Position numbers and translations under genes: made by a program. Of a DNA stretch of 42,018 bases, positions 12,206 through 20,802 are shown one piece after another; within the stretch, counting starts at the first letter, position 1; each line of letters begins with the position of its first letter. The notes beneath the pieces are model-generated. The model did not search any database. It saw only the letters and a list, made by a program, of their open reading frames with translations, and was not told where the DNA came from. Source of the stretch: Chloroflexaceae bacterium (lineage in GTDB: Bacteria; Chloroflexota; Chloroflexia; Chloroflexales; Chloroflexaceae); assembly GCA_025057155.1 (NCBI GenBank), contig JANWYD010000029.1:1-42018 (forward strand), read 5' to 3'.

Positions 12206-12458
12206 GGCGCCACCTCCCTGAGGTTGTTATCGTACCCGATTGTACGGTCAGGTCGCCATAGACGCAAGCCCGGATCGCAGGGCGTCTCTTGTCGCCACAG
12301 GGCATCTGTGGGATTGGGTCTGCTACGATTTACCGTGGAGGGCATCGAAGACGGGCTATTTGAAACCTCCGCGCCTCTCCGCGCCCTCGGCGGTGAGTTC
12401 GTGTGCGGTTTCGACCCGTGCTATACTGGTTCGGACATTCGCCAGGAAAGCGCCGTCT

Positions 12459-15029
12459 ATGACCGACCTGCTTGGCCAGCTTGTGGGCAACTACCAGCTC
12501 GAAGCGCTTCTCGCCATCGGCCCCACAGGACCAACCTATTCCGCCCGTCACGTGCAACTGCGGCGGCTCTGCACGGTCAAGGTGTTTGACCCGGGGCTGA
12601 CCGCCGACCCTGCGGTGCGCGCGCGGCTGCTGGAGAGCCTGCAGCGCGTCGCGGGGCTCCGTCACCCCAATCTGCTCACGGTGTATGACCTGGGCGAGGT
12701 GCAGGGGCGAGTCTTCGTCGCCAGCGAGGCGCCCGCAGGCGGAACCCTGCGCAGCCTGCTCCAGCAGTTGCGCGGCACGCGCGCCCGTCTGACCATTGCC
12801 CGCGCCCTGGACCTGGCCCGCCAGTGCGCAGAGGGATTGGACCATGCCCATCGCGCCGGCATCGTTCACGGCGCGCTGCGCCCCGAGGCGCTGCGGTTGA
12901 GCAGCGTCGGCGAAGAGGCGACGCTCAAGGTGGGCGACCTGGGCATCGCCCCGGTGTTGCCAGTCGAGGCCACCGCCATGCCTGCCTACCTGACCCCCGA
13001 ACAGGCCCGGAGCGGCCCGCCCGACGCCCGCAGCGACGTATACGGTCTGGGGACGCTGTTGTACGAATTGCTGATCGGGGTTCCCCCCTTCAACCTGAGC
13101 GACCTGGATCGGGCTACAGAGAAACACCTGCGCGCCCGCCCCGTGCCACCGCGTGTGGTGCGCCCGGAGATCCCCGCTGCACTCGAAACGATAGTGCTGC
13201 GTTGTCTGGCCAAGGCGCCCGAAGAGCGGTTCGCTCATGCTGGCGATCTGGCCGAGGCCCTGCGCCAGGTAGCGGGCGCCCCGGCGTCCACGGCGCCACC
13301 GCCGCCCGCGCCGGAACCGCTCCTTAGCAGCTTGCTAGAGACCCCGCCGCCTCCGCCTTCCGTTCCCGCCGGGCCGCTCGTCAGCCTGACCCCCGAACGC
13401 GAACGTATCGAACTGACCCCCGGGCGGCCCACGGTCGTCGCGGCGCAGATCCACCATCGCGGCCCCGGCGTCGAGCGCTTCAGCCTGAGCCTGGAGGGCG
13501 TGCCCGCCGAGTGGATCAGCGCCGTCGATCCGCCGGTTGAACTCGGCCCCGACGCCCGGGCGCGCCTGACGCTGCTCATCACCGCGCCCACCGACCACCG
13601 CCACGCTGCCGGCGAGTACCCGGCGCTGCTCCGCGCCCGCGCGGCGACCGCGCCGGAGCGTGAGGCCACGGCGCGCATCGTCTGCTCGGTGCGGCCCTTC
13701 GTCGCCCCGCATATCGTCATTACCCCCGAACGGGCCAGCGGGCGCATGGAGGGCGAGTACAGCCTGACCATCCGCAACGACGGGAACACCGAGGCGACGT
13801 TTGCGCTGAGCGCCGACGATCCCCGGCGCCTGCTGGCCTATGAGTTCGTGCAGGAGAGCGTGCGCCTGGCCCCCGGCCAGAGCGCCAGGGTGCCGCTTAC
13901 CGTCCTGGCCCCGCGGCGGCTCTTCGGCGGCCCCGAAACCCTGCGTTTCAGCGTCTTCGCCGAGAGCGAGGAGGCCAGCCCGGTGGAGGCGCGGGCCGAG
14001 TTCACCCGCGTGCCGTTGCTGCCCCTCTGGGCGCCACTGGCCGCTGCCGGCCTGATCGCCCTGGCCCTGCTTGCGGGCCTGCTGCTCAACAACCCGCCCG
14101 GCGGCAACCCGCCCCCGCCCGCCACGGCCACCATTGCTCCCTCGCCGCAACCCGGCGCCCCGCAGATCGCCTATTTCACCGTCAAACCGGAGGTGGTAGC
14201 GCCAGGCGAGCCGGTAACCGTCGCCTGGGACGTGCGCGGGGCCGAGCGGGTGCAGATTGACCAGTTCGGCGACGTTCCCCCGCTCGGCGAACGCTCCTTC
14301 CGCCCCGAGCGCACCACCGACTTCCGCCTCGTCGCCCGCGCTGGCGACAAAGAGACCGTCGCCATCGTCCGCGTCCTGGTGGCCGAGGCCACCCCTACGC
14401 CCGAACCGACGGCCATCCCCACAGAGGCGCCATCTCCTGCTCCGGCGCCTTCGCCTACGCTTGCCGCGACGGCTACCCCGGTCGGAACGGCCACCCCGGC
14501 GGCCCCGACGCCCACCCTGGCCCCCGCGCCCGGCTCCATCGCGCTGCTCGACCTTGCCCCCGCCGCCCGCTGGACGACCAGCGCCGGCCCCATCACCTTC
14601 GGCGCGCCGCAGGGCAACCCCGAAGCGGGCGGCTGGGCCGACATCGCCAGGGTGATCCGCCTCGAAGACGGCAGCCTGGCCCCCGCCGCGCTGCTGACCT
14701 TCCCGCCGCTGGCGCCGGAGGCCGCGGGCGACGGCAGGACCTTTATCGAGGCGCGCTTCGACCTGCCGCAGATCCAGGCAGGCCAGTTCTTCCTCGCCGT
14801 CATCGGCTTCTCCAGGGAGGCCCGCGGGCCGGCGCTGGACGTGCTGGTCACCTTTAACAACGAGCTCCTCTACGAGGGGAGCGTGCTGCCCGACGGCGCC
14901 CTGACGGCCATCAGCGCCGACATGGCGCCCTTCGTGGGCCAGGAGGGGGACCTGGTGCTGCGCGTCAGCGCCGAGCAGGGCGCGGCGCAGGCCCTCTACT
15001 GGGTGAAGCCGCGCATTGATCGGCCGTGA
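12459..15029 (+). CDS. Membrane Ser/Thr-kinase-like pseudokinase with extracytoplasmic domains
   Basis: The 856-residue protein starts with a Pkn-type kinase fold (residues 1-275). Lys41 in CTVKVF, the DLG segment (Asp160), YLTPEQARSGPPDARSDVYGLG and the C-lobe are kept. The catalytic loop reads HGALRPEALRL (His137-Gly-Ala) where HRDLKPENILL is expected, so the catalytic Asp and the Asn are gone. The glycine loop is also degenerate (GPTGPTYSARH). It is probably a signalling scaffold rather than an active kinase. Two beta-sandwich domains (about 300-515), one membrane helix (about 521-543), a further beta domain, a Pro/Thr-rich linker and a C-terminal beta domain follow. AGGAAAG precedes the ATG at 12459, and the topology of the beta domains before the helix implies a cytoplasmic location. 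Confidence 0.88.
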   Translation: MTDLLGQLVGNYQLEALLAIGPTGPTYSARHVQLRRLCTVKVFDPGLTADPAVRARLLESLQRVAGLRHPNLLTVYDLGEVQGRVFVASEAPAGGTLRSLLQQLRGTRARLTIARALDLARQCAEGLDHAHRAGIVHGALRPEALRLSSVGEEATLKVGDLGIAPVLPVEATAMPAYLTPEQARSGPPDARSDVYGLGTLLYELLIGVPPFNLSDLDRATEKHLRARPVPPRVVRPEIPAALETIVLRCLAKAPEERFAHAGDLAEALRQVAGAPASTAPPPPAPEPLLSSLLETPPPPPSVPAGPLVSLTPERERIELTPGRPTVVAAQIHHRGPGVERFSLSLEGVPAEWISAVDPPVELGPDARARLTLLITAPTDHRHAAGEYPALLRARAATAPEREATARIVCSVRPFVAPHIVITPERASGRMEGEYSLTIRNDGNTEATFALSADDPRRLLAYEFVQESVRLAPGQSARVPLTVLAPRRLFGGPETLRFSVFAESEEASPVEARAEFTRVPLLPLWAPLAAAGLIALALLAGLLLNNPPGGNPPPPATATIAPSPQPGAPQIAYFTVKPEVVAPGEPVTVAWDVRGAERVQIDQFGDVPPLGERSFRPERTTDFRLVARAGDKETVAIVRVLVAEATPTPEPTAIPTEAPSPAPAPSPTLAATATPVGTATPAAPTPTLAPAPGSIALLDLAPAARWTTSAGPITFGAPQGNPEAGGWADIARVIRLEDGSLAPAALLTFPPLAPEAAGDGRTFIEARFDLPQIQAGQFFLAVIGFSREARGPALDVLVTFNNELLYEGSVLPDGALTAISADMAPFVGQEGDLVLRVSAEQGAAQALYWVKPRIDRP

Positions 15030-15056: not shown

Positions 15057-15525
15057 GGACACTTCCATTGGGCAGGGGAAACCTGGCTTCCCCACTTCTC
15101 AGGTGTAGGGTTTCCCGGCGCATGCTCGTGTCGCATGCGCCATCCGGGGCATTGGGACGCCTAACCCCCCTCTACCGCTCGCGGGAGAGGCGGGCGGGGG
15201 GGGGGTGAGGACCGTAAGCGCATTGGAATGCCAAAAACCTCTGCTCGCCAAAAAACCTGAGAGGGCTTCCCCAACCCCCTCTGGCTTCGCGAAGTTAAAA
15301 AAAGATTCACCCCCAGAGACACCAATTTGTCATCCCGTCATCCGACGAGTCTTAACATTCCCCTGCTACCATCGAAGGCGCAGTCCCGACGGAACAAGCG
15401 ATGCGTGCGCCCTCTCCCGACAGGGTGAGCGCAAGCTGGCCACGTCGCTCGCTCACGACGCCCGGCGTTCGCCAGGGCTACGTACCGGGTGCTACGCGTA
15501 TCGGTTCAGGGGAGAAAGGGAAGTT
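15057..15525. other. Intergenic region with palindromes and a G10 run
   Basis: No gene is seen. Contents are a near-palindrome GGGGAAACCTGGCTTCCCC (15075-15093), a 9-bp-stem hairpin GGCGCATGC...GCATGCGCC (15117-15141) and a run of ten G (15196-15205). A less GC-rich stretch at about 15290-15375 follows, which probably holds the nuclease gene promoter (TTAACA at about 15353). The nuclease ORF stays open through here, but its translation is not protein-like. Confidence 0.55.
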
Positions 15526-18500
15526 ATGGCATCGTCGCACCCCCGTTGGCGCGCCGTCGCGCGCCTGGCGAGCATCAACGTCTTGCTGCTCGCCGTACTC
15601 GTCTCCTTCGTCGGACCCATTCCGCAACTCGCTCGCGCCACCGCCACCATTACCCGATGGACCTTCGACAACGACACCCTGACGCCCGCGGTTGGCTCGG
15701 GAACGGCCACTCTGGTGGGCGGGACCACGGCGTCCTTCGCTACCGGGCGCGTCGGCCCGCGCCCGCCTGACTCGGGCTGGAACACGACCACGTATCCCGC
15801 CCAGGGCGCTAACAACCGCACCGCCGGGGCACAGTTCGCCGTGAGCACGGTAGGCTACGAGAACATCGTCTTCAGTTGGGACCACCGGCACAGCAATACC
15901 GCCGCCAATACGGCCGTGCTGCTGTACTCCACCGACGGCGGCGCGACCTTTGCCGAGGCCAGCGTCTATACCGCCAACGCGGGCGACGCCTGGTTCAGCC
16001 GCAGTTTCGACTTCAGCGCCATTCCGGCAGTAAACAACAACCCCAATGTTATCTTCCGCATCGTTTCGTCATTCGCGGCCGGCGGCTCGACCTATGTGGC
16101 CTCGAACCCCGGCTCGAACTATGCTACCACTGGCACCTGGCGCTTCGATAATGTCACCGTCATCGGTACAGCCCTGGGCAGCGACGCGGCTCCGACGGTG
16201 ACCAGCACCGCCCCGGCCAATGGCGCGGCCAATGTGCCTCTGGCCAGCGATGTTACCGTGACCTTCAGCGAGCCGGTGGCCGTCAGCGGCGACTGGTTCA
16301 CCCTGGCCTGCGCCTCCAGTGGAACGCGCGCTCCCTCGGCAGCCAATGTCGCCGTCTCCGGCGGGCCGACCACGTTCACCATCAATCCCGCCGCTGATTT
16401 CGCCTTTAGCGAAACCTGCACCCTGACCGTGATCGCCGCCCTGGTGACCGATCTGGACGCAAGCGATCCGCCCGACACGATGGCGGCCGATTTCGTGGCC
16501 ACCTTCAGCACTGTGGCTGCGCCCAGCGTCGCCACGCGCATCCGCGACATCCAGGGCGCCGCGCATGTCTCGCCGCTGGTGCCGGTTATCGCCGATAATG
16601 CCATCTCCTTCGGCAGCCGGGTCGAGAACGTGCCGGGCATCGTCACCGTCGTGCGTCCCAACGGGTTCTATCTCCAGGACCCCGAGCCTGACGCCAGTGA
16701 TGCCACCTCCGAGGGCATCTTCGTCTTCACCGGCAGCGGCCAGGCGGTGATCACCCAGGGCGGCAGCGGCCCGGTGCAGGTCGGCGACCGCCTGGAGGTC
16801 AGCGGGCGCCCGGTGGAGATCCGCCCGGGCTGCACCAGCGCCGCCTGTGTCTCCGGCAGCAGCGCCTGGAATAACCTGACCATCACCAACCTCAACGCGA
16901 CCACGTCTGCCGCCGATAACCGGGTGATCCGCCTGATCTCCCGCAACAACCCTCTGCCCGATCCGGTGGTGATCGGCCAGGGCGGGCGGACGCCCCCGGC
17001 CACGGCGACCGTCTTCGGCAGCCCCGGCGCCGCGCCGACCAACACGGTCGAGACAGCCAGCTACGTCTTCAACCCCGCCGCCAACGGCATTGATTTCTTC
17101 GAGAGCCTGGAGGGGATGCGCGTCCAGGTCAACGACGCGGTGGTCGTCGGGCCGACCAATAACTTCGGCGAGATCGTGGTCCTGGCCGACAACGGCACGG
17201 GTTATGGCCTGCGCACCCCCCGTGGCGGCCTGGTGATCACTCCCACGGACCTCAACCCCGAGCGCATTATCCTGGATGACGCCATTCTGCCCACGCCTCA
17301 GGTGAACGTCGGCGACCGCTTCCCCGGCGTCGGCGCGGTGGTGGGCGTGATGGACTACAGCTTCGCCAACTTCAAGCTGCTGATCACCCAGCCGCTGCCC
17401 CCCGCTGTGCCGGGCAGCCTCACGCAGGAGGTGACGAACCTCACCGGCGCGGTTGACCGCCTGACCATCGGCGCCTTCAACATCGAGAACTTCGCCGCCG
17501 ACACCGTGACCCCCCAGCGGCGCGATGCTATCGCCCGGATCATCGTCAACAACATGGGCGCGCCCGACATTGTGGCCCTGCAAGAAGTGCAGGACAATAA
17601 CGGCGCAACCGGCGGCACGGCGGACACGAACGTTGACGCCTCGCGCACCTTCGAGACCCTGATCAACGCCATCGTAGCCGTGGGCGGCCCGACCTATTCC
17701 TACCGCCAGATTGACCCCGTGGCCAATCAGGACGGCGGCGAGCCGGGCGGGAACATCCGTGTGGCCTTCCTCTTCCGCACCGATCGCGGTCTGAGCTTCG
17801 TGGATCGGCCTGGCGGCGCCTCAACCACGGCGGTGAGCGTGGTCAACAACGGCGGGCGGCCTGAGCTGAGCTTCAGCCCCGGGCGCATTGACCCCACCAA
17901 TCCGGCCTTCAACAACAGCCGCAAGCCGCTGGTGGGCGAGTTCCGCTACAACGGGCAAACGCTCTTCGTCATCAACAACCACTTCAACTCGAAAGGCGGC
18001 GACCAGCCGCTGTCGGGCCGCTTTCAGCCCCCGACGCGCTCTACCGAGGTACAGCGGCACCAGCAGGCCCAGATCGTCAACGATTTCGTTGACAGCGTGC
18101 TGGCGATTGACCCCAACGCCAACATCGTCGTCCTGGGCGATCTGAACGACTTCCAGTTCTCGGAGACGCTCAACATCGTCAAGGGCACGCCGGGCGGCGT
18201 GGGCGCACCGGTGCTGTTTGATCTGAAGCTGAACCAGCCGGCCAACGAGCAGTACACCTACATCTTCGAGGGCAACTCGCAGGTGCTGGACAGCATCCTC
18301 ATCAGCCGCAACCTGCGCGACAGCGGCGCGCAGTACGACACGGTCCACGTGAATGCCGAGTTCAGCGCCGCGAGCAATGCCAGCGACCACGACCCCAGCG
18401 TGCTGAGGTTGTACTTTCGCCCCCGCGCAACTCCGCCAGCGCTGGTGGCTGCCGGTAGTTATGACACCGGCCTGGGCGGCAACGGCGCCGAGATCATCAG

Positions 18501-20802
18501 CGTGCGCGGCGACCGCGGGGTGCTCACCAACGCTGGCGACGGCAGTATTGACGTGCTCGACACCAGCGATCTCTTCAATATCCAGCGCATCCGGCGCATC
18601 ACCGGCGTGCCCAATCTGACCTCGGCGGCCGTCCACCCCACGAAGGACCTCTTCGTCGCCGTGGCCGGCGCGTCGTCGCCGCGCAGCGGCCAGTTGCTGG
18701 TGTACCGTCTCTCTGACGGGGCATTGCTGGCGACGGCGAACATCGGGCGCCAGCCCGACTCGGTGGAGATCAGCCCCGACGGGCGCTTCGCCGTGGTGGC
18801 GATCGAGGCCGAGCAGGTGAACGCCGCCGACGACGGCGGCGCGGGCGCGATTGGCGTGGCCGACCTCAGCGCCTTCGACCCGGCCAGTTCGACGAGCGTG
18901 CCCTTCAGCATCGTCGAACTGCCCGACCTGAGCAGCCTGCCCGGCATCGCCGCCAACCGGCGCTACGATGTGCCCGGCAACCCGCTCGTGTCGAATGCTC
19001 CCGGCGGGCTGGAGCCTGAAGGGATCGCCTTTACGCCTGACAGCAGCGCGGTGTACGTGACGCTCCAGGAGAACAATGCGATCGTGCGCCTGGACCTGAA
19101 TGCGCCATTGCCCGCCGTGCTGCCGGCGAGCAACGCCTTCGGCCTCGGCCTCACCGACCACCCCGCCGACCTGATCAACGACGGGCGCTACAACCCATCG
19201 CAGCAACTGGCCGCCTTCCGCGAGCCGGACGGCGTCCGCGCCGTGGTCATCGGCGGTGTCACCTACCTGGTGACGGCCGACGAGGGTGACACCCGCCCCA
19301 ACCCCCGCGGCGGTCGCACCCTGAGCATCTTTAACGCCGCCACCGGGGCGCCAGTGTCCGACGCCGGGGCGCAACTCGACGACCTGGCGGCCAGCTTCGG
19401 CGTTTACCCCGACAGTCGCAGCCCGAACGGCGGCAGCGAGCCGGAGATGCTCGACGTGGCCACGTTCGCCGGGCGGGTGATTGCCGCAGTGGGCCTCGAG
19501 CGCGCCAATGCGGTGGCCTTCGTGGACATCAGCGACCCCGCTGCGCCCCGCGCCTTCAGCCTGGTGCGCACCGGCGCGGCTCCCGAGGGCGTGAAACTGG
19601 TCGAACGGGGCGGTCAACTCTACGCCCTGACGGCCAACGAGGGCGACGGCACCGTGACCGTCACGACGGTTCCGGTGGTCCCGCTGAGCGTGTCGCAGCG
19701 CTTCGTCGAGGACGCGCCCGCCGTGCCGCTGGTTGACCTGCGCGGCATTGACCCCGACGCAGGCGACAGCTTCACGCTGAACCTGACCCTCAGCCCGGCC
19801 AGCGCGGGCACGCTCAACGCGACCTCGGCCAGCGGTTCGCTGGCGGACATCAATACCACCCTGGCAAATCTGGTCTTCACGCCGGCCCCCAACTTCAACG
19901 GCGCGGCGACAGTGACGGCCACCCTCAGCGACGGCGTCTTCCCCGCCGTGAGCGGCAGCATCACCCTCACCGGCGCGCCCGTGCCGCCGGTGACCACGGC
20001 GAGCATGTCGGGGGCGACGCGCGTGTGCTGTAACGCCACCGTGTACGACCCGAGCGCCACGCTGACGCTGACCACCGACGAACCCGTACTGCGCACGCAG
20101 TACCGGGTGAATGGCGGGCCGCTGCAAACCTACACCGGCCCGGTCGTCTTCAACGCGCCCGGCGCCTACGTCGTCGAGTACTTCTCAACCGACCTGTTTT
20201 CGCCTGAGGTGAGCGAAGCGCCGCGGACCATCGCCTTCAACGTGAGCGACTACCCGCGCACCGCGCTACTCGACACCTTCGACCGGCGCGACGGCCGGTT
20301 AGGTTCAAACTGGGCCGGCGGCGAAGGGCTGGGCGGCTACTCCATCCGCGCCAATCAGGTGGAGGTCTTCGGCGGCGGGCCGATCTACTGGCGCACGCGC
20401 TTCGGCAGCAACCAGGAAGCCTACGTCAAACTCACGCGGCTCAACGCCACGGCGCGGCACCAGGGCCTGCTGCTGAAGGTCCGCAATGGCAACTGGCGCA
20501 ACGGGGCGATTTCGGTCTCCTACAACGCCACGGCGCAAGCAGTGGTGGTCGAGACCTACAACCGCTTCAGCCGGAGCTGGACGACGATTGGCACGTACCC
20601 GATCACCCTGCGCGACGGGGATCAACTCGGGGCGCGCGCCCTCTCCAACGGGACGGTGCGCGTGTACGTCAACTGCGTGCTGATCGGCCAGGCCAGCGCG
20701 GGCACGGCCTTCGACGACGAGGACGGGCAGATCGGCCTCTGGTTCATTGACGCGCCGGGGGCCATCTTCGACGACTTCGGGGGCGGCACGCCCGCGCAGT
20801 AG
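15526..20802 (+). CDS. Large secreted ExeM/NucH-type extracellular nuclease
   Basis: The 1758-residue protein begins with a signal peptide (cleavage near ARA, residue about 40). In order follow a beta-sandwich domain, a Big_5 Ig-like domain (about 222-335), an OB-fold region typical of ExeM (TRIRDIQGAAHVSPL onward), and an endonuclease/exonuclease/phosphatase domain. Its active-site residues are visible: Asn652 (FNIENF), Glu687 (LQEVQD), His819 (NNHFNS), Asp872/Asn874 (GDLND) and Asp954-His955 (SDHDP). Then come a beta-propeller-like choice-of-anchor I domain (about 975-1385), an Ig-like repeat and a C-terminal concanavalin-like domain. It should degrade extracellular DNA with divalent metal, perhaps for nutrient phosphate. 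GGAGAAAGGGAAG precedes the ATG at 15526. No sorting signal or membrane anchor is visible at the C terminus. Confidence 0.9.
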   Translation: MASSHPRWRAVARLASINVLLLAVLVSFVGPIPQLARATATITRWTFDNDTLTPAVGSGTATLVGGTTASFATGRVGPRPPDSGWNTTTYPAQGANNRTAGAQFAVSTVGYENIVFSWDHRHSNTAANTAVLLYSTDGGATFAEASVYTANAGDAWFSRSFDFSAIPAVNNNPNVIFRIVSSFAAGGSTYVASNPGSNYATTGTWRFDNVTVIGTALGSDAAPTVTSTAPANGAANVPLASDVTVTFSEPVAVSGDWFTLACASSGTRAPSAANVAVSGGPTTFTINPAADFAFSETCTLTVIAALVTDLDASDPPDTMAADFVATFSTVAAPSVATRIRDIQGAAHVSPLVPVIADNAISFGSRVENVPGIVTVVRPNGFYLQDPEPDASDATSEGIFVFTGSGQAVITQGGSGPVQVGDRLEVSGRPVEIRPGCTSAACVSGSSAWNNLTITNLNATTSAADNRVIRLISRNNPLPDPVVIGQGGRTPPATATVFGSPGAAPTNTVETASYVFNPAANGIDFFESLEGMRVQVNDAVVVGPTNNFGEIVVLADNGTGYGLRTPRGGLVITPTDLNPERIILDDAILPTPQVNVGDRFPGVGAVVGVMDYSFANFKLLITQPLPPAVPGSLTQEVTNLTGAVDRLTIGAFNIENFAADTVTPQRRDAIARIIVNNMGAPDIVALQEVQDNNGATGGTADTNVDASRTFETLINAIVAVGGPTYSYRQIDPVANQDGGEPGGNIRVAFLFRTDRGLSFVDRPGGASTTAVSVVNNGGRPELSFSPGRIDPTNPAFNNSRKPLVGEFRYNGQTLFVINNHFNSKGGDQPLSGRFQPPTRSTEVQRHQQAQIVNDFVDSVLAIDPNANIVVLGDLNDFQFSETLNIVKGTPGGVGAPVLFDLKLNQPANEQYTYIFEGNSQVLDSILISRNLRDSGAQYDTVHVNAEFSAASNASDHDPSVLRLYFRPRATPPALVAAGSYDTGLGGNGAEIISVRGDRGVLTNAGDGSIDVLDTSDLFNIQRIRRITGVPNLTSAAVHPTKDLFVAVAGASSPRSGQLLVYRLSDGALLATANIGRQPDSVEISPDGRFAVVAIEAEQVNAADDGGAGAIGVADLSAFDPASSTSVPFSIVELPDLSSLPGIAANRRYDVPGNPLVSNAPGGLEPEGIAFTPDSSAVYVTLQENNAIVRLDLNAPLPAVLPASNAFGLGLTDHPADLINDGRYNPSQQLAAFREPDGVRAVVIGGVTYLVTADEGDTRPNPRGGRTLSIFNAATGAPVSDAGAQLDDLAASFGVYPDSRSPNGGSEPEMLDVATFAGRVIAAVGLERANAVAFVDISDPAAPRAFSLVRTGAAPEGVKLVERGGQLYALTANEGDGTVTVTTVPVVPLSVSQRFVEDAPAVPLVDLRGIDPDAGDSFTLNLTLSPASAGTLNATSASGSLADINTTLANLVFTPAPNFNGAATVTATLSDGVFPAVSGSITLTGAPVPPVTTASMSGATRVCCNATVYDPSATLTLTTDEPVLRTQYRVNGGPLQTYTGPVVFNAPGAYVVEYFSTDLFSPEVSEAPRTIAFNVSDYPRTALLDTFDRRDGRLGSNWAGGEGLGGYSIRANQVEVFGGGPIYWRTRFGSNQEAYVKLTRLNATARHQGLLLKVRNGNWRNGAISVSYNATAQAVVVETYNRFSRSWTTIGTYPITLRDGDQLGARALSNGTVRVYVNCVLIGQASAGTAFDDEDGQIGLWFIDAPGAIFDDFGGGTPAQ

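Follow-up and report, generated by a model that had tools for sequence, protein, structure and literature searches.

A transmembrane pseudokinase lineage of Chloroflexales that most likely acts by binding rather than by phosphorylation

What does a protein kinase fold do in a membrane protein when the HRD motif of its catalytic loop has been changed to HGA? The question is raised by a gene in a stretch of 42,018 nucleotides (the window), positions 1 to 42,018 of contig JANWYD010000029.1 from a Chloroflexaceae bacterium (assembly GCA_025057155.1; genome G000 here). The frame of this gene is open back to a TTG at 12240, and the start with MTDLLGQ at 12459 is the one kept in orthologues. The product matches Pfam Pkinase at residues 13-259 (E value 5.2e-22; 78.9 bits against a curated cut-off of 31.7), and PknB chains head its relatives in the PDB (best E value 6.3e-37), which places homology to kinases far beyond chance. 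The features of the gene and of its downstream neighbour are as follows.

12459-15029, forward strand: whole gene, an intact open reading frame of 856 codons plus stop for a transmembrane pseudokinase
12480-13283, forward strand: pseudokinase domain, residues 8-275 (Pfam Pkinase; PknB in the PDB)
12510-12539, forward strand: degenerate glycine loop LAIGPTGPTY (alignment)
12579-12581, forward strand: beta3 lysine K41, present (alignment)
12636-12638, forward strand: Ser60 at the position of the alpha-C Glu (alignment)
12867-12899, forward strand: HGALRPEALRL in place of HRDxKPxN, residues 137-147 (alignment)
12936-13001, forward strand: activation segment DLG...TPE of 22 residues, with Met174 for the Thr of GTPAY
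13284-13373, forward strand: Pro-rich linker, in relatives of other genera the site of an FHA-bearing insert (after residue 285) that is absent in the window's genus and in G016
13374-13694, forward strand: NEW3-like Ig domain, residues 306-412 (NPCBM_assoc in the G002 orthologue; alignment)
13731-14003, forward strand: FixG_C Ig-like domain, residues 425-515 (Pfam)
14025-14090, forward strand: transmembrane helix, about residues 523-544 (hydropathy)
14154-14384, forward strand: ectodomain Ig, residues 566-642 (alignment with relatives)
14385-14528, forward strand: Pro/Thr-rich linker, residues 643-690 (orthologue comparison)
14529-15026, forward strand: C-terminal ectodomain, residues 691-856 (matches of relatives; low-confidence model)
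15205-20802, forward strand: surface protein of 1865 residues, 175 bases downstream, with an ExeM/NucH-type nuclease region (below the NCBIfam cut-off)

Up to an E value of 0.01, Pfam matches in the window protein comprise Pkinase, PK_Tyr_Ser-Thr and FixG_C only; for the NEW3 domain, the Pfam call comes from the G002 orthologue rather than from the window protein. Hydropathy reveals one strong hydrophobic segment, whose best 19-residue window starts at residue 525. A preliminary description had drawn a kinase joined through beta domains and one helix to Pro/Thr-linked extracytoplasmic domains, and the FixG_C domain, the single hydrophobic segment and the Pro/Thr-rich stretch agree with that layout. 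The order of the parts suggests on which side of the membrane each would lie. AlphaFold2 modelling of the whole protein from a three-sequence alignment gave a mean pLDDT of 35.5; for the C-terminal domain the mean was 50.9, most of residues 76-159 (of 176) exceeded 50 in a strand-rich stretch, and this domain is probably beta-rich.

In the catalytic loop, the change from HRDxKPxN to HGALRPEA replaces the catalytic Asp by Ala139, the loop Asn by Ala, the HRD Arg by Gly138 and the loop Lys by Arg. The DLG at residues 160-162, including D160, and TPEQ at 179-182 are retained. Seven activation-loop residues are missing, and the Thr of GTPAY in the active relatives is lost as well; another loop Thr is present at residue 172. 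The preliminary description had listed the beta3 Lys, the DLG Asp and PEQ as kept, together with HGALRPEALRL and a poor glycine loop, and all of these are seen in the sequence and in the alignment; the alpha-C Glu, the HRD Arg, the GTPAY Thr and the full length of the activation segment are lost as well. Thus, among the residues expected of an active Hanks-type kinase, the beta3 Lys and the DFG Asp are present (K41 and D160), and the HRD Asp, the loop Asn and the alpha-C Glu are absent.

These losses are shared by relatives. A search for orthologues took in the window's genome and 60 relatives, 61 genomes in total, with 15 candidates scored in each, and full orthologues were found in three of the four other genomes of the same genus (G003, 91% identical; G002, 87%; G004, 78%), all three with the HGA motif. 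An isolated mutation or a sequencing error is rejected, the motif being shared by orthologues in other assemblies. In the fourth genome, G001 (97% complete, 460 contigs), no orthologue was found, so that the gene may be dispensable. In a search with the ectodomain through 82 genomes of the order (up to 29 candidates scored per genome), matches occurred in 15 genomes, and all were on dead kinases except one partial match. This exception, G069:C550, is an HRD kinase that keeps the Asp and matches only the Ig half of the ectodomain before its contig ends; it is counted as active. Among 301 genomes of the phylum (eight candidates scored per genome), no protein outside the order matched both halves of the ectodomain together; single halves were matched in other proteins there. 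Relatives of the C-terminal ectodomain (35-37% identical) also end small lipoprotein-like proteins of family f13 of the phylum (L105, L106 and L107).

The kinase domains of 15 ectodomain-type proteins from 14 genomes, the window protein included, were compared with those of 11 active relatives of like architecture; linkage of the kinase and C-terminal parts is inferred in G016 and G032, where they lie on separate contigs. The fifteenth genome, G020, has the HGA motif and was left uncounted, its kinase part being split over two frames. The G020 copy (L050 4767-7871; G020:C126) lies in three pieces in different frames, owing to a frameshift or an assembly error. The catalytic Asp is absent from all 15 dead domains, which is the pattern by which bacterial pseudokinases are generally recognized (at least one of the beta3 Lys, HRD Asp and DFG Asp absent, and conserved as such in a lineage). 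The HRD Arg is likewise missing from every one, with Gly in its place, and the alpha-C Glu occurs in 0/15 dead and 11/11 active domains. The loop Asn (position 144) is absent from 12 and present in three, the Thr of GTPAY persists in two, and the activation segment has 22 residues in 13 of the 15 dead domains versus 28-30 in all 11 active ones. Orthologues with a normal HRD motif were sought, and none occurs among the three of the same genus or the 15 ectodomain-type domains, which supports the earlier claim of a pseudokinase.

K41 and D160 of the window protein raise the question of an atypical but active enzyme, in which these residues would bind ATP for weak phosphorylation or for another transfer such as the AMPylation of SelO. 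Precedents exist in SelO, a kinase fold that lacks the usual catalytic Asp, and in SidJ, as described in the parts of a 2025 review that treat them (PMC12599244). However, neither residue is fixed in the dead relatives, in which the beta3 Lys is found in 12 of 15 and the DFG Asp in eight of 15; the alpha-C Glu is gone throughout and the glycine loop is degraded. Within residues 137-144, only H137, G138 and P142 are invariant across the 15, and the SelO motif given in the review, Hgvmntdn (PMC12599244), is not present in the window protein. We therefore regard such an enzyme as unlikely. The presence of K41 and D160 makes nucleotide binding or odd chemistry possible for the window protein itself; since the Lys or the Asp is lost in several relatives, ATP binding would not be a family trait.

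Is the domain then a decaying, functionless remnant of a former kinase, or even an isolated or assembly error? Its distribution is patchy, the FHA domain has been lost, no copy was found in G001 and the G020 copy is split over frames. Against this, the frame is open in four genomes of the same genus at 78-91% identity, several genera have the same motif, and dN/dS of the kinase domain, by simple Nei-Gojobori counts over six pairs of the four same-genus sequences, is 0.16-0.21, which indicates that the gene is maintained. For the same four sequences, dN/dS is 0.21-0.27 over the whole protein and up to 0.52 in the NEW3 domain. These values point to purifying selection on the gene, and decay or error is very improbable.

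What has been maintained was assessed at sites invariant in the 11 active relatives, a site being scored as kept if at least 14 of the 15 dead domains retain it. In the active site and activation loop 5/27 such positions are kept, versus 18/33 in the C-lobe from APE on (Fisher p 0.007, for regions drawn after the alignment had been seen). The first part of the C-lobe keeps 5/11 and the N-lobe outside the active site 8/27; given this drift of the N-lobe, the contrast does not concern the active site alone. By these counts, the C-lobe appears best preserved and the catalytic face let go.

Better retention of C-lobe than of active-site positions would also suit an allosteric partner, that is, a dead domain that dimerises with an active PknB-like kinase of the genome and switches it on or off. 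The window's genome has 21 Pfam kinase-domain matches, 19 of which keep the Asp by alignment; among the latter, the alignment of L067 and L069 is rough, and both look degenerate in other motifs. In two other genomes, an HGA pseudokinase (L042 and L043) has an array of three active kinases nearby, the closest of which is about 8 kb away. Nevertheless, the window's contig holds no other Pfam match to a kinase, nor one to FHA, and nothing in the genome resembles the Ig and ectodomain part, with the exception of one weak match (38% over 91 residues, E 0.004). An allosteric partnership is therefore possible but doubtful. As to phosphatases, a scan of 26 of the 115 ORFs listed for the window named none of signalling type.

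The genome holds 12 FHA matches, and other kinase-like proteins in it are of interest in their own right. In the alignment, L067 154-2091 (G000:C4:45889) keeps HRD but has the beta3 Lys replaced by His and DFG by NLS, and is perhaps another pseudokinase. L062 900-3815 (G000:C35) has two kinase domains within one open frame of 972 residues.

On one side of the pseudokinase gene lie an iron alcohol dehydrogenase gene and an ABM-domain gene on the opposite strand. The downstream nuclease-like protein, which also has Big_5 and choice-of-anchor I stretches, is a neighbour in G000, G003 and G004; it was not found at the rest of the 12 loci searched, the G002 stretch among them, and for this reason is rejected as a fixed partner. 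Beyond it lies a UDP-glucose pyrophosphorylase gene, which recurs in G004 and G016.

The relatives also vary in the FHA domain between the kinase and Ig domains. Pfam finds it in six of the eight dead relatives scanned (G029, G015, two proteins of G017, G045, and G033 with a match just under the cut-off); the other two, from G002 and G004, have no Pfam match to FHA, and neither has the window protein. In the alignment, the window protein and those of G002, G003, G004 and G016 have no insert at this site. A simple residue pattern (GR, SxxH, NG) matched eight of 14 dead proteins; its misses include two proteins with FHA by Pfam (G017a and L042) and two without the insert (G004 and G016). As G016 groups with the window's genus in the tree (100/99), FHA was most likely lost once in their common lineage. 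One bacterial order thus offers a natural series, from active proteins with kinase and FHA through dead ones of the same make-up to dead ones that lack FHA, by which the role of a bacterial pseudokinase becomes testable by comparison.

Trees leave the origin of the dead catalytic loop less certain. For the first two, 17 of the 62 rows were set aside, namely the broken copy of G020 and divergent kinases of the window's own genome. When every column is used, a single branch (93/95) separates the 17 non-HRD rows from the others; without the motif columns, an HGA clade of 11 rows stands (96/91) and the whole dead set needs three changes. In a third set, without the motif columns and the activation loop, a clade of the 15 ectodomain-type rows is marginally rejected (AU p 0.039), because the dead L028 and L042/L043, the injection-linked HGA pair, group within them, and a single clade of all 18 dead rows is not rejected (p 0.37). 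A single origin of all dead kinases is set aside as an established result, trees with and without the motif columns being different; one loss of the Asp for all of them is possible.

The active relatives lead to an unexpected setting. The nearest ones are found in G042, G051 and G056, each with three kinase genes arrayed next to Baseplate_J and Tail_P2_I genes, and in G051 also Phage_base_V, so that by gene content these loci are of contractile-injection type. The arrays are located as follows.

L041, 4872-13175 (G042): active-kinase array
L043, 9746-17982 (G056): active-kinase array
L044, 3085-11582 (G051): active-kinase array

Two active relatives that were scanned have a kinase domain, FHA and a FixG_C-like stretch about at the Pfam cut-off. 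Like the window protein, the active proteins show the order kinase, (FHA), NEW3/FixG_C-like, two long ones share a stretch aligned to its transmembrane helix, and the three of G042 are 40-41% identical to it in the kinase domain. Unlike it, they have HRD, Glu, Asn, DFG and a full activation loop, FHA is present in the two scanned, identity in the ectodomain is 12-23%, and they start 2-9 kb from Baseplate_J or Tail_P2_I genes. In the ectodomain Ig, identity to the window protein is 60-62% for four dead relatives of other genera and 39% for that of G045, and 12 and 23% for two active relatives and 27% for the dead L042 protein. Kinase matches of the window protein also start 1-21 kb from such injection genes in G025, G030, G006, G045 (C3) and G015 (C103). 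An FHA domain is fused to a Tail_P2_I protein at L044:13232-14293 (G051). At L041 13226-20000 in G042, two large FHA-plus-Ig proteins lie between the active array and the HGA pseudokinase; they may serve this module as phospho-readers. Kinase-FHA control of type VI secretion is known, and the arrays at Chloroflexales injection loci recall it; such a module at these loci was not found described in the literature searched. This link of the active relatives to injection-system loci, which points to a kinase-FHA module there, is the more surprising by-product of the analysis.

For the window protein itself, an injection-system role is not favoured, as ectodomain-type pseudokinases and injection genes share no contig. 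None of 15 such pseudokinases (G020 included, G069 not) has Baseplate_J or Tail_P2_I on its contig, even when weak matches, for example in G002 and G003, are taken into account, although four of these contigs are shorter than 10 kb, which makes the absence weak there. G017 has two ectodomain-type pseudokinases and no Baseplate_J or Tail_P2_I match; in the window's genome, Baseplate_J matches lie on contig C4 and none on C29, the window's contig, and Tail_P2_I has no match genome-wide. The two marks of the injection-linked kinase-FHA group, an FHA domain and nearby injection genes, are both lacking in the window protein. Counter to this, the dead HGA kinases of L042 (G042) and L043 (G056), which have no window-type ectodomain, do stand near injection genes, at 17-18 kb; L042, the one scanned, has FHA. 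A speculative and distinctly unlikely scenario would make the HGA pseudokinases a regulatory offshoot of the injection-system kinase-FHA module, in which the dead kinases would read phosphothreonine through FHA and would gate the machine or tether it at the membrane; the window's lineage would then be a membrane receptor without phosphothreonine reading, turned to another envelope task.

Because the catalytic residues are missing in close relatives too, the most likely mode of action of the window protein is to bind other proteins, not to phosphorylate them. We favour, with moderate confidence, a single-pass membrane pseudokinase that would act as a scaffold or signal transmitter. Without its catalytic residues, the kinase fold would carry out no phosphotransfer; its C-lobe and the cytoplasmic Ig domains would be docking sites for partner proteins, and on the other side of the membrane the conserved ectodomain would sense, or anchor the protein to, something in the envelope. 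In FHA-bearing relatives, FHA would read phosphothreonine made by another kinase, whereas the window's lineage, having dropped it, would rely on the remaining domains. The loss of the Asp and Glu in all 15 dead domains and of the Asn in 12, the short activation segment, C-lobe retention, dN/dS, the distribution of the ectodomain and the frequency of FHA among the dead relatives scanned speak for the scaffold or transmitter; retention of K41 and D160, N-lobe drift, G001 without an orthologue and the Ig match of G069:C550 speak against it, and the scaffold role is itself drawn by analogy with EssB/YukC.

Bacterial kinase-like sequences without the Asp were tabulated already in the portion of an earlier paper that concerns them (PMC1262709), and the 2025 review, in the sections drawn on here, recognizes 42 bacterial kinase families, of which five consist entirely of pseudokinases and two contain many (PMC12599244). 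The preliminary description had called a protein that binds rather than phosphorylates unusual among bacterial Pkn proteins; this was overstated, because of the pseudokinase families listed in those sections (PMC12599244) and because the window's own genome has a second Asp-less protein. The latter, at L068 1353-2753 (G000:C15:129563), is kinase-like with HPPISSSN at the catalytic loop. The text of PMC12599244 does not contain "Chloroflex", and searches of the pseudokinase literature for Chloroflexi and Chloroflexota found no paper on a family of the window type; the Chloroflexales dead-kinase lineage thus appears undescribed. Dead bacterial kinases are already known, and what is new here is a lineage with its own motif, architecture and FHA loss.

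Among known systems, the PknB/Stk1 PASTA kinases resemble the window protein in having the nearest kinase domain of known structure, an N-terminal kinase and one transmembrane helix. They differ in that the window protein is without catalytic residues, and it scores 178.4 bits with the NCBIfam PASTA-kinase model, versus a cut-off of 450 bits. ActPs1-3, GLW, DLHK, CP1 and DYD are, as the review presents them, conserved lineages of dead bacterial Ser/Thr kinases like the present one, and GLW also has a transmembrane region behind the kinase (PMC12599244). By the motif patterns described there, the combination of a kept Lys, HGA and DLG fits none of ActPs1, ActPs2, ActPs3, GLW and DLHK. ActPs1 has all three catalytic residues substituted, whereas K41 and D160 are kept here; ActPs2 has Arg for the beta3 Lys, Asn for the HRD Asp and a DFG deletion, as opposed to K41, A139 and DLG; ActPs3 (MviN) has VALT, Lsidhps(r) and no DFG, as opposed to TVKV, HGALRPEA and DLG. 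GLW has LLLL/W for the beta3 Lys, where the window protein has CTVKVF, and DLHK keeps the HRD Asp and has no transmembrane segment, unlike a protein with A139 and one such segment. EssB/YukC of type VIIb secretion is, in the account of the same review, a membrane pseudokinase with a degraded glycine loop and a reduced activation loop, as is the window protein, and is described as recruiting the secretion machine (PMC12599244). EssB is degraded in all three motifs, whereas the window protein keeps the Lys and the DLG Asp, and up to an E value of 0.01 the latter has no Pfam match to the EssB/YukC family; by analogy of membrane placement and lost catalytic features, EssB/YukC would be its nearest functional parallel.
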